59,084 nt of DNA from a virus. Positions within the stretch are counted from its first letter, which is position 1. Each line of letters begins with the position of its first letter. The translations under genes were made by a program, and so were the position numbers. Below, piece by piece: positions 44,274-48,347 of the stretch. The notes beneath the pieces are model-generated. The model did not search any database. It saw nothing but the letters and a program-made list of their open reading frames with translations, and was not told the DNA's origin. The stretch is from the IMG/VR virus record IMGVR_UViG_3300047552_000148, positions 1-59,084 of that record; one strand, given 5' to 3'.

Positions 44274-44431
44274 TTCCAATCGTCCTCATCCTTAGCTGTA
44301 TCTACAATGCTTTCCTTTACCAAAGCAGAGATGCCTTTGTCTAACAAGAATTGCACCGTCTCAACATCACATTGCAGCAGCAGCACAAGACTGCCATCTT
44401 CTGTTTCCTGCACATCTAATACGTCTAGCAT
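44270..44431 (-). CDS. Acidic 53-residue protein
   Basis: MLDVLDVQETEDGSLV followed by LLLQCDVETVQFLLDKGI and a Lys/Asp tail ending D-E-D-D-W-K. Its ATG shares a base with the RNA ligase stop (TGATG), and its stop overlaps the next ATG. The pattern is like small phage proteins encoded with RNA ligases; no function known. Confidence 0.65.
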   Translation of the reverse strand: MLDVLDVQETEDGSLVLLLQCDVETVQFLLDKGISALVKESIVDTAKDEDDWK

Positions 44432-45327
44432 CAGAATAGTTCCTTCTTAAGTTGTTTAACTTTCACGGTTGTGTATGTCGCTAGTGTTTTGAAGTTGATG
44501 GTGGGGTTCTTGTTTTCTCTAACAATGTTCCACATCTCTTCTCGCACTAGGTCGTAGAACACAGTGTGTAGTAGCTGAGGAATAAACTGAGAAGTCCAGC
44601 CATCACGGGCTAGAACAATCTTTGCGTACACCTTATCTACCAACGCCTGTGTTACATACTTGTCTACGATTTTCTCTTCAACGACTTCACAGCCAACAAC
44701 AGGCGCACCCATTGTCTTGATGTGATTGTCTTTGAATTCGTTGCTTACAATTTTAGCCCAGCATTGTCTGCCGTACTTATTCTTGTACGCATAGTTCTTA
44801 ATTACAACACCTTCAGCTACACCAGCACCATCTTTGATTAGGAAGTTGGCGTTGTCAATACACTTCACAAACATTTCGTATGTGCCGTTCTTGACAATGG
44901 CTACTGGTGCGATGAAGTGTAAGCCTGCTTCTGTCAACATACCAGCATAGTCTTCGTAAGGAACAAAGCATTCGTTCTTAGTATCGTAGACATCAAAGAC
45001 ATAAAACTTACGCCATGCATCATCGTTGTAATACTTTACTGTGTGTGGAACAAGCCATTCACCGTACAGCGTAAGCCACGGATAAGCATTGGTAAAGGCT
45101 TGGATGTTGAAGTCGTTCACCATAGCAGCCATGAAGCCAGCGTTGTCTGCGTCTAAGCTAAGTTGTCGGTTACGACTACCGCAGCAAAGCACACCACCTG
45201 CTTCTTCTTTCCACACAGAAGCGTTAGTTCCATCAATCTTTGGAAAGACATAGGACAGACCAACTTCAATGCCTTCTACTTCGGTGTTACCGAAGCGTTC
45301 AAGGTGCATGTATTTAATAAAGCTCAT
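44431..45327 (-). CDS. RNA ligase, Rnl2-like
   Basis: A 298-residue nucleotidyltransferase. Motif I F-P-K-I-D-G-T-N carries the Lys that accepts AMP; other motifs: G-S-R-N-R, L-Y-G-E-W-L (III), E-G-V-V-I-K (IV), and C-W-A-K-I-V-S (V). This fits the RNA_ligase family (T4 Rnl2 type). Such phage enzymes repair tRNA or other RNAs cleaved by host defence; no kinase or tRNA gene is visible here. Overlaps the HNH gene upstream by four bases. Confidence 0.85.
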   Translation of the reverse strand: MSFIKYMHLERFGNTEVEGIEVGLSYVFPKIDGTNASVWKEEAGGVLCCGSRNRQLSLDADNAGFMAAMVNDFNIQAFTNAYPWLTLYGEWLVPHTVKYYNDDAWRKFYVFDVYDTKNECFVPYEDYAGMLTEAGLHFIAPVAIVKNGTYEMFVKCIDNANFLIKDGAGVAEGVVIKNYAYKNKYGRQCWAKIVSNEFKDNHIKTMGAPVVGCEVVEEKIVDKYVTQALVDKVYAKIVLARDGWTSQFIPQLLHTVFYDLVREEMWNIVRENKNPTINFKTLATYTTVKVKQLKKELF

Positions 45328-45716
45328 TTACGTTTCCTTTCTTGTTTCTCTTGATCAGACTTCACCTTATGGCATGAGGTACAGAGAATTTGGTAATTGT
45401 CTAGCTCACAAAACATTCTGTCAATGTAAACATCCCAGCTTACGAAGCCTTGTTGTGTGTCAACAACAGGTTGTATGTGATCGACTTGCACATCAGCAGC
45501 AACAAAGACATTGGCACAGCTAGCACAGCGATAGTGCATAGCCATCTTCCCTGTCTTTGCATTCACTTGCCTACCAACAAAGGCTGTCTTCAACGCCTTA
45601 AACTTCACAGGCCAACGCCGTGAGGCAGCACGAAGAGCAGACGTAACAAAGCTCTTAAACCTTGCTTCCGTCCACTCCCCGCCGTTGCGTTGCTTAGGCT
45701 TAGAGGATTTCGCCAT
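45324..45716 (-). CDS. HNH endonuclease
   Basis: A 130-residue protein with C-A-S-C, V-Q-V-D-H-I-Q-P-V and C-E-L-D-N-Y-Q-I-L-C-T-S-C-H: a zinc-bound HNH core. N-terminal region is basic. The simple single-domain structure is shared by phage replication-region HNH proteins; whether it is selfish or serves the phage is unclear. It overlaps both neighbours. Confidence 0.82.
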   Translation of the reverse strand: MAKSSKPKQRNGGEWTEARFKSFVTSALRAASRRWPVKFKALKTAFVGRQVNAKTGKMAMHYRCASCANVFVAADVQVDHIQPVVDTQQGFVSWDVYIDRMFCELDNYQILCTSCHKVKSDQEKQERKRK

Positions 45717-46352: not shown

Positions 46353-46688
46353 TCAGCACATCCTTCCGTATGTTGGTGTGTCTTCATCAAGCACAATGTC
46401 TTTAGAAGTTTCATTCATGGCTGCAACTTCTTCCTCACCATAGATTTCTTGACAGCGTTCATGTACACGGTTGGTTAGCTCTTCATCTTCTTCCATCAAC
46501 GAAATGGTAGCGGCCATCATTGTAGCAACCATCACCATATGATGTACTTCTTCGTCCTTCATTGTGAACGGGCCATACCCACCAATCACAATTTCAAAAT
46601 CACCATCCCATTCTTTACCTTCAACAATAGCGGGACGCAAAATGATGGCTACATCATTAGGCTTTATCTGTTTACTGGAGGTTGCCAT
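46353..46688 (-). CDS. Acidic hypothetical protein, 111 residues
   Basis: Opens MATSSKQIKPNDVAIILRPA, then a Met-rich hydrophobic helix (HHMVMVATMMAATISLMEED) and an acidic tail. Overlaps the exonuclease gene by 25 bases. Many phages carry a similar-size acidic protein after the exonuclease; I cannot name a family. Confidence 0.65.
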   Translation of the reverse strand: MATSSKQIKPNDVAIILRPAIVEGKEWDGDFEIVIGGYGPFTMKDEEVHHMVMVATMMAATISLMEEDEELTNRVHERCQEIYGEEEVAAMNETSKDIVLDEDTPTYGRMC

Positions 46689-47376
46689 ATTTCATCCTTG
46701 TGTCTACGCAGGTACAACAACCTAGCGTTTTCAATTACACGTTCTTCATTACCATCGTAAGCGTCTATACAACGTAGATACATATCCACTTCATCAACAC
46801 TCTCTTCCAGTATCTTCGCAGCCTTAGCTGGTCCAACACGATAGAGTCCTTTGATGTTGTCAGCATCATCGCCTGTTAGTATCTGCATGTATAGGCTTTC
46901 AAGACCTTCCTCTTCAGTGACGTAGTAGCCTTCCTTCTTAACGAAGTTGTAATGCCAGCCTTGCACTTGCTTAAAGTCTTTGTCTACACTAACAATGATG
47001 CTTTTGTTTAAGGCTGCTGTAGCCTCAATAGCAATAACATCATCGGCTTCTTCTCCGTCTGATACGTTAGCACCCCACTGTTCAATGAGGTGCATACGCA
47101 GATAGGGAAGGTGTTCAGGTTTTGCAGATCGGTTGCCCTTGTAAGGCGCAGTCTTTGCAATGTTATGCCTGAAGTTGTTCTCCCCTGTAAGGAAGAGTTT
47201 CCACTTATCTACGTAGCACCCATTGAAGGTGTTGTCTACTTCGCATACAAGGATGTCAGCAATATAGTTGTCCATACGATGGCAAGCTATCTTCACTGGT
47301 TCATCCTTGCAGGCGAAGGCTACTCTGTACGTTATCAGATCAGCTAAGCGTCTACGAGTGCAACCATATGCTTCAT
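46664..47376 (-). CDS. 5'-3' exonuclease (flap endonuclease), frame-broken at N-terminus
   Basis: T7 gp6-like exonuclease. The main frame has T-A-P-Y-K-G-N-R, G-E-E-A-D-D-V-I-A-I-E-A, V-S-V-D-K-D-F-K-Q-V and I-L-T-G-D-D-A-D-N-I-K-G-L then G-P-A-K-A-A-K-I-L (H3TH), all as expected. Its first family residues are D-L-I-T-Y-R-V-A-F-A-C. The preceding consensus L-V-D-A with the metal-binding Asp is in another frame: AGGAGG then ATG at 47376 gives MKHMVALVDA and a UAG stop. Skipping five bases (47346-47342) joins them perfectly to about 235 residues. An in-frame ATG at 47407 exists but has no ribosome site and lacks the motif. Processive 5'-3' digestion removes RNA primers and host DNA. Confidence 0.85.
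47342..47349 (-). other. Candidate 5-nt translational bypass or indel site
   Basis: Minus strand reads GAC-GCT-TA-GCT-GAT. The first GCT (47349-47347) is the last sense codon before UAG; the second GCT (47344-47342) starts the frame that continues the exonuclease. Matching take-off and landing codons with a stop right after take-off is the geometry of T4 gene 60 bypassing. A 5-bp insertion or sequencing error would look the same. Confidence 0.5.
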
Positions 47377-48050
47377 AGACCAGTACCCTCCTTCTGATTA
47401 CCATCATCAGTATGGGCTGCTAAATATTTAGATGCCTTCATTAAAAGTTCCTCGCTATCTTGAAAAAATCCTAATCCTCTATTACAGTTTGTACATAGAA
47501 ATTTACGAAGCATTCCTGTATCGTGATTATGATCTAAGTGTGTTAAGTGCCCGTGCATTGGAAGATGATTAGAACAAATTGCACAAGAGTTGTTTTGTTG
47601 CCTTAATCTTTCTTCATATTCCTCTAAAGATATTTTATGTCTAACTAGAACATATGCTGCCTTTTTATATCGCTTGTATTTTGGATTACTTTTATTAACA
47701 TGATGAAAGGCTATTGATTTTTTACTAGCACATTCTTTGCAATAGTAAGCTAATCCTTTTCCTTTTTTATTGTTCTTATCTTTATGAAACTCATCGTGTA
47801 ATTTAAGTTCTCTACAGAAAGAACAAGTCTTGTGTGTGTCTGTAACATATTGAACTTTAACCTTTTTTTCTACATTGCTTCTACTTTTAGCCAGCGTTTC
47901 TGACGAACATTTTCTACAAGAGTGAGACAAATAGTTTCCATGCTTGTTTCTTTTATCGTTTGTAAACTCGCTAAACAGTTTAAGTTGTCTACATGTAGAA
48001 CACTTTTTATGGGTCTCATTAAAGAACTGTGGTTCTCTTTTATTAGACAT
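47373..48050 (-). CDS. Endonuclease VII-like protein with duplicated zinc ribbon
   Basis: A 225-residue protein. Two tandem zinc ribbons (T-H-K-K-C-S-T-C-R-Q-L-K-L-F-S-E-F...C-R-K-C and T-H-K-T-C-S-F-C-R-E-L-K-L-H-D-E-F...C-K-E-C) precede the EndoVII core C-A-I-C, L-D-H-N-H-D-T-G-M-L-R-K-F-L-C-T-N-C-N-R-G. It has its own consensus sigma-70 promoter at 48082-48110, unlike its neighbours. Its stop overlaps the exonuclease ATG and its last codons encode the exonuclease's AGGAGG. Probably a homing endonuclease that inserted just 5' of the exonuclease; a Holliday-junction role is less likely but possible. Confidence 0.85.
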   Translation of the reverse strand: MSNKREPQFFNETHKKCSTCRQLKLFSEFTNDKRNKHGNYLSHSCRKCSSETLAKSRSNVEKKVKVQYVTDTHKTCSFCRELKLHDEFHKDKNNKKGKGLAYYCKECASKKSIAFHHVNKSNPKYKRYKKAAYVLVRHKISLEEYEERLRQQNNSCAICSNHLPMHGHLTHLDHNHDTGMLRKFLCTNCNRGLGFFQDSEELLMKASKYLAAHTDDGNQKEGTGL

Positions 48051-48081: not shown

Positions 48082-48110
48082 GGTATACCGAAGCAGATTC
48101 GCTATGTCAA
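48082..48110 (-). promoter_or_regulatory. Sigma-70 promoter of the EndoVII-like gene
   Basis: Minus strand TTGACA (48110-48105), 17-base spacer, TATACC (48087-48082). The predicted start is about 25 bases before the EndoVII ATG. It is the only strong internal promoter I found in the replication arm. Confidence 0.72.
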
Positions 48111-48143
48111 TCACAAAAGAGTTAATAAAGCCAGCAAGCTACA

Positions 48144-48347
48144 TCACTCAGGTTGTGCAAGAGGAAGCTCTGGCTGTTCAGGAACAACTTGCTTCTCTTT
48201 AGCAGCCTGCTCTGCTGCTTGTACTTGTGGTGTAGCTTGCTGATGAATGATGTTGATGTGTTGAGCAACAGCCTCGTAAGGCAGCTTACCCAGCCCAGCA
48301 AGGCAGGCATTCACTGTTTCAATGTGGAGGTCAAGTTTAATATTCAT
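48144..48347 (-). CDS. Small conserved phage protein, 67 residues
   Basis: D-L-H-I-E-T-V-N-A-C-L-A-G-L-G-K-L-P-Y-E-A-V, then Q-H-I-N-I-I-H-Q-Q-A and a Gln/Pro tail. The 'L-x-K-L-P-Y-E-x-V' pattern is common in small proteins of many phages, usually next to replication genes. Function unknown. It starts at the stop of the SSB gene. Confidence 0.7.
   Translation of the reverse strand: MNIKLDLHIETVNACLAGLGKLPYEAVAQHINIIHQQATPQVQAAEQAAKEKQVVPEQPELPLAQPE

Follow-up and report, generated by a model that had tools for sequence, protein, structure and literature searches.

Until now bypassing has been known from T4 gene 60 and from yeast mitochondria, and a 2010 review considered it apparently unique to T4 gene 60 (PMC3014915). 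In that gene, forward sliding of the ribosome is promoted by a 5′ stem-loop that forms behind it (PMC11194080). Synthetic stop hops of +5 and +6 between matched codons have been described in E. coli (Weiss et al. 1987, as far as that work is presented in PMC5009743), and the same review knows of no natural in-frame stop hop. In the Corndog/Firecracker phages an HNH gene is inserted before the tape-measure gene, which is still translated non-canonically, and bypass was considered by the authors (PMC4351075). The window analysed here, the whole stretch from position 1 to 59,084 (59,084 nt) of IMG/VR virus record IMGVR_UViG_3300047552_000148, carries an exonuclease locus on its minus strand whose reading frame is broken, and comparative sequence analysis makes a +5 stop hop within a mobile cassette the best, and a probable, explanation of the break. 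The elements at the break are these:

47387..47393, minus strand: Shine-Dalgarno sequence AAGGAGG for the replacement exonuclease start, read in the sequence and kept in most hop loci
47347..47376, minus strand: replacement 5′ coding segment MKHMVALVDA, 10 codons, with its ATG at 47376-47374; fits the family consensus ..LVD[AS]D
47349-47347, minus strand: take-off codon GCT, the end of the MKHMVALVDA segment, from the sequence
47342..47346, minus strand: five-base insert TAGCT; a further 15 contigs have TAGNN at this position
46664..47341, minus strand: rest of the 5′-3′ exonuclease, 225 codons after the hop (DLITYR...); the joined protein matches PF02739 with its motifs intact

The UAG stop of the insert (47346-47344) overlaps the landing codon GCT (47344-47342), and the exonuclease frame reopens with GAT from 47341 and runs to 46664. 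Upstream, the TGA stop of an endonuclease ORF (47375-47373) lies within the exonuclease start as an ATGA overlap. A preliminary description of this DNA had proposed MKHMVALVDA followed by UAG with the frame returning as DLITYR five bases on, a GCT-TA-GCT arrangement at the break, and an endonuclease end meeting the exonuclease start, and the window reads in exactly this way. Its expectation that joining yields the family consensus L-V-D-A-D agrees with the [LVI]D[AS]D of native relatives, in which the LVD Asp and the D-x-D spacing are both invariant. By FEN-family membership this Asp would be a metal ligand, the best structure-match alignments having begun further in. The joined protein matches PF02739 in Pfam (E 4.7e-9) and has the motifs GxEADD, DKD and GDxxDN intact, as they are throughout the hop set, so that it carries both the domain and the acidic motif residues of a 5′-3′ exonuclease of the FEN family.

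The same break recurs across IMG/VR. TAG followed by any two bases occupies the exact exonuclease position in 15 further contigs, every one of the 15 pattern matches being an intact 5′-3′ exonuclease gene, and the 16 contigs represent 15 distinct hop loci including the window, as L131 and L134 encode an identical exonuclease from two metagenomes. All are metagenomic in origin, and exonuclease identity among them falls as low as about 28%. The relaxed pattern demanded TAG, an Asp codon on either side and C or G at the second take-off base; being limited to TAG, it under-samples inserts with other stops and may miss further variants. TAG directly follows the take-off codon in all 15 loci, as the pattern prescribed, and a search with endonuclease profiles, which did not prescribe the insert, returned six insert-bearing loci, all TAGNN, together with three kinds with a normal exonuclease start (L098, L101, L105/L106). 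Among the first 80 IMG/VR exonuclease relatives, 78 have the normal start, one (L029, which lies on the contig of L090) has TAGCT inserted at the exact site, and one (L059) is truncated by the end of its contig; a second, overlapping set of 80 is normal throughout (80/80) and free of the insert. Aligned with related exonuclease genes with and without the endonuclease, as had been envisaged, the insert recurs in 15 loci and the natives read through. What is found is two out-of-frame halves of one conserved protein with a noncoding gap between them, as in bypassing. Searches with blastn and tblastn using the junction, the exonuclease and the endonucleases found no cultured phage with the insert, phages QDWS535, ctOsX528 and ICBM2 having normal exonuclease starts, and the TAGNN pattern gave only chance matches (three) in bacterial genome contigs. 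Matches L088, in a tail-fibre-like gene, and L092-L094 were also set aside as chance.

In the hop loci a replacement N-terminus of 7-16 residues ends in LVD, LID, LLD or IVD plus A, G or S and is followed by TAGNN and then D. This Shine-Dalgarno-led LVD-A/G/S segment is kept at every hop locus, and in every locus examined an upstream ORF, usually a homing endonuclease, ends at the ATGA. The take-off and landing codons pair as follows:

GGT/GGT: L130, L131, L132, L135, L136, L139
GGT/GGA: L137
GCT/GCT: window, L091
GCT/GCC: L140
TCC/GCC: L129, L133
TCC/GCT: L089
TCT/GCT: L090
GCC/GTT: L138

The second base agrees in 13 of the 14 distinct junctions (shuffle mean 6.6, permutation fraction 0.0003), all three bases in 7 of 14 (shuffle mean 3.2, fraction 0.011), fractions that serve as guides rather than strict p-values because the loci are related. 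Matching codons, as first described for the window (GCT/GCT), are not universal in the set, and the limit of exact identity to 7 of 14 junctions counts against a +5 hop. Ser take-off codons could not match GNN at the first base in any case. L138 (1650-1715) is an outlier, GCC and GTT agreeing at the first base only, a further point against the hop, and its hairpin loop is 31 nt long. The matched codons could be partly a by-product of cassette insertion. The UAG itself arises automatically because a UA spacer precedes a G-starting codon, an origin that may reflect insertion of the cassette beside a native codon.

Upstream of the break the window holds the remainder of the putative cassette:

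47373..48050, minus strand: homing-endonuclease-like gene of the Endonuclease_7 family, 225 aa (Pfam PF02945, E 1.4e-17, above cut-off)
48082..48110, minus strand: sigma-70-like cassette promoter, TTGACA at 48110-48105, a 17-nt spacer and TATACC at 48087-48082
48129..48144, minus strand: remnant, now decayed, of the native start of the exonuclease (ATG.TAGCTT.GCTGG.C), resembling the relatives' native ATGATAGCTTTGCTGGAC and displaced by the cassette

The preliminary description had assigned the endonuclease gene a promoter of its own, for which this sigma-70-like sequence is the candidate, and a similar TTGACA...TATAMC precedes endonuclease genes in L090, L091 and L101. The window endonuclease is also a PHROG endonuclease VII and has relatives occupying the same site. 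It has a duplicated N-terminal CxxC...CxxC module (47376-48050) and is 225 aa long against 168-171 aa in relatives. At least two endonuclease families are involved: by Pfam the window enzyme is an Endonuclease_7 and those of L135 and L137 are HNH_3, the family at other loci being assigned by homology or by-eye motifs. Clear native-start remnants lie in the same place in L140, L089, L090, L129, L131, L135 and L137; in L140, L089 and L090 the native 5′ end precedes the endonuclease. In L129, L131, L135 and L137 the native exonuclease N-terminus is fused in frame to the endonuclease (MIALIDGDI..., MSKTLLIDGDI...), which seems to borrow its start from the host gene.

The near-isogenic pair L007 (empty) and L090 (occupied) places the insertion precisely: the flanks align at 85.5% and 83.4%, and between the two Asp codons L090 is longer by approximately 609 bp. 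Endonuclease gene and gap are present together and absent together in this pair, and the insert is missing from all 80 natives of the second set. On the exonuclease tree the insert requires 8 changes, at least 4 of them forced by well-supported branches, a pattern that suggests repeated gain or loss. The insert also persists when the endonuclease does not: L132, L136 and L138 retain insert and hairpin with only remnants of the endonuclease, and so does L133 despite an unrelated upstream ORF. That ORF in L133 (upstream of 3709, reverse complement) is coiled-coil-like, replaces the endonuclease and likewise ends at ATGA. In L098, L101 and L105/L106 the same endonuclease family occupies the same site, with the exonuclease re-supplied with a normal start and no stop; these loci are an alternative solution and a natural control, and by eye L098, L101 and L105 have neither insert nor hairpin. 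Elsewhere in the window an RNA ligase-like gene (44431-45327) lies near the exonuclease, and a second HNH endonuclease gene (45324-45716) overlaps the start of that gene.

Codon substitution patterns indicate that the interrupted exonuclease is under purifying selection, also where the endonuclease is deleted. For the downstream half, dN/dS is 0.133 for L090/L007, 0.145 for L091/L153 and 0.265 for L132/L135, in which both members carry the insert, compared with 0.11-0.13 for native pairs. Since both halves are under selection they should be joined, and recoding as the means of joining them is strongly inferred from the sequences.

A hairpin abuts the take-off codon:

47350..47380, minus strand: stem-loop with 5′ arm GTCTATGA (47380-47373) and 3′ arm TCGTAGAC (47357-47350)

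The 5′ arm contains the endonuclease stop and the exonuclease AUG, the 3′ arm ends at the take-off codon, and the predicted energy is -13.1 kcal/mol (z -3.5 against shuffled sequences); folding energies across the hop loci are likewise below those of shuffled sequences, with z from -1.6 to -7.7. The stem is 8-9 bp and ends exactly at the last sense codon, an arm GTCYATGA(G) spanning the AUG pairing with (C)TCRTRGAC in the codons immediately before take-off. Every hop locus has 7-9 of 9 hairpin positions paired, compared with 3-6 of 9 in 40 distinct native starts, and 92% of hairpin cells are paired, falling to 27-49% once the arms are slid. Compensatory changes are seen at two pairs: nine sequences have U-A and five C-G at the first, and the second is G-C apart from a single A-U. 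Given the protein, synonymous codon choice leans towards pairing in all hop loci, and the pairing explains RTA/RTG codons that natives scarcely use. The loop ranges from 4 to 31 nt, and at any length the 3′ arm adjoins the take-off codon. Folding places small apical helices in most hop loci; a conserved 3′ stem-loop sought in wide folds was not general, with suggestive 3′ stems in L130, L132 and L135.

Recurrence, position, hairpin covariation, mobility and selection on both halves are read from sequence, and from them we infer the joining of the halves, the +5 hop as the means of joining, a role for the hairpin and immunity. In the proposed mechanism, a cassette comprising a homing-endonuclease gene and a replacement 5′ end for its target gene would insert where the exonuclease gene encodes its first metal-binding motif, LVD-A/G/S-D. 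The new 5′ end would supply an AUG overlapping the endonuclease stop, 7-16 residues, and then NNN-UA-GNN-GAY. The ribosome would read to NNN and encounter UAG, whereupon the peptidyl-tRNA would release, shift five bases and re-pair with GNN, and reading would restart at GAY to give a protein of consensus length with LVD-A/G/S-D. The upstream stem-loop is probably an aid, closing progressively in the wake of the ribosome, a process that the small apical helices could start, and because its 3′ arm lies against the take-off codon the stem would close only as mRNA leaves the ribosome. That the insert immunises against the endonuclease is plausible, as it may destroy the enzyme's own target in the manner proposed for T4 gene 60/mobA. 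The earlier suggestion of a short bypass element travelling with the endonuclease gains support from the recurrence, the empty-site pair, the tree, the covarying hairpin and the purifying selection.

The hairpin also permits another reading, in which it hides the AUG and couples exonuclease initiation to translation of the upstream ORF, the hop proceeding unaided. The AUG does lie within the 5′ arm, and an ATGA-ending ORF precedes it at every locus examined, even after endonuclease loss; against this, endonuclease genes without the insert have no hairpin beside them, and the 3′ arm stays against the take-off codon whatever the loop length. We consider this reading possible but doubtful; it concerns the role of the hairpin only and is compatible with a +5 hop. 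As it surrounds the AUG, the hairpin may just as well act in initiation, and the stem-loop may couple initiation to the upstream ORF in addition to aiding the hop. A different route to a continuous protein would be a -1 or +2 shift near the stop, joining the frames at the cost of two added residues or one (VDA-LA-DLI or VDA-A-DLI). In net terms the frame does change by -1, and YTA-G[CGT]N read in the -1 frame gives Leu and then a small residue in all loci. This is nonetheless unlikely, as a slippery heptamer is absent, a P-site tRNA on GCU or GGU could re-pair neither after one step back (CGC, CGG) nor after two steps ahead (UUA), native relatives have an invariant D-x-D spacing, and the landing codon covaries with the take-off codon. 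The +5 hop fits best because it gives the consensus length exactly, accounts for the covarying landing codon, places the stop in the A site and has synthetic precedent.

Initiation in the exonuclease's own frame, upstream or just past the junction and without the VDA segment, had been raised at the outset as a route to the functional protein. The window frame is open from ATG 47407, and an upstream ATG likewise exists in L090, L091, L129 and L140, yet in 8 of the 15 loci that frame offers no start ahead of the junction and 47407 was rejected as a general route; L090 and L129 have none within the first 50 codons past the junction. Proteins from such starts would lose the LVD Asp that is invariant in natives, and the Shine-Dalgarno-led LVD-A/G/S segment is kept at every locus. 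No conventional start codon accounts for all hop loci, and we regard alternative initiation as very unlikely. A slightly smaller probability attaches to the view that the cassette knocks out the exonuclease and leaves dead alleles: the frame is broken on paper, but low dN/dS and intact catalytic motifs speak against it, as do the outlasting of the endonuclease by the insert and the maintenance of 0-frame coding and hairpin. Removal at the RNA level, with the insert inside an intron and a 5′ exon formed by the native 5′ end that precedes the endonuclease, would suit the native 5′ remnants seen in many loci. It is highly improbable, however: the remnant is decayed in the window and in L091, the roughly 100 nt outside the endonuclease ORF are too little for a group I core, and the insert adjoins a distinct 5′ coding segment that has a Shine-Dalgarno of its own; an intron was rejected for want of room and on the decayed remnants. 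The break itself is real and not an error. The contigs are metagenomic, but a five-base insert of the same kind stands in 16 of them, drawn from different assemblies, two metagenomes yielded one and the same exonuclease (L131 and L134), and this recurrence across 15 loci excludes the simple indel, mixed population or assembly error named as alternatives in the preliminary description, making assembly error, sequencing error or a minority variant a negligible prospect.

Several known systems come close to a +5 stop hop of this kind. Like the synthetic stop hops, as they are presented in PMC5009743, it has matched codons flanking a stop and a peptidyl-tRNA that would hop a few bases forward; those hops are artificial, whereas the exonuclease arrangement is natural, conserved and equipped with a covarying hairpin, and unlike the in-frame stop hop of that review it changes frame. 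The byp elements of Magnusiomyces capitatus mitochondria are likewise bypassed inserts with codon matches that are sometimes imperfect (PMC5009743). Their inserts are longer than those described here and are met by mitochondrial ribosomes. We know of no nuclease gene linked to them. In Firecracker (L227, about 500-540) the tape-measure gene behind the HNH gene has no usual start codon (PMC4351075); the signature of AUG, stop and hairpin was looked for there and not found, and the gene may be another HNH-linked non-canonical start. If the hop is true, a compact, portable element in many phages would show the ribosome's minimal hopping needs, the constructs for testing it in E. coli are short, and homing endonucleases and recoding would be tied together in a repeated evolutionary pattern; gene finders will miscall exonucleases that bear the hop.

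The likeness to T4 gene 60/mobA is extensive: a stop right after the take-off codon with halves out of frame (PMC3014915, PMC5009743, PMC11194080), an upstream stem-loop, an HNH-type homing endonuclease just upstream, and an insert that is missing from relatives and possibly protects from the nuclease. The gap is 5 nt here (2 nt between codons) in contrast to 50 in T4 gene 60, stems that might serve as an A-site hairpin are suggestive in a few loci and not general, and the landing match is often partial. A T4-type nascent-peptide signal is also lacking, as only 7-16 residues precede the site, without a shared basic motif, and such a signal is impossible within that length. The target gene differs, and many phages and two endonuclease families are involved here against one phage for T4 gene 60. 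What emerges is probably a natural and widespread family of mobile stop-hop cassettes, carried by at least two unrelated endonuclease families and outliving them. Their +5 hops would be efficient, lie early in an important phage gene and use UA between codons that nearly match, together with a hairpin in the first codons; judged from its sequences, this seems to be the first family of such very short hops to come from nature.
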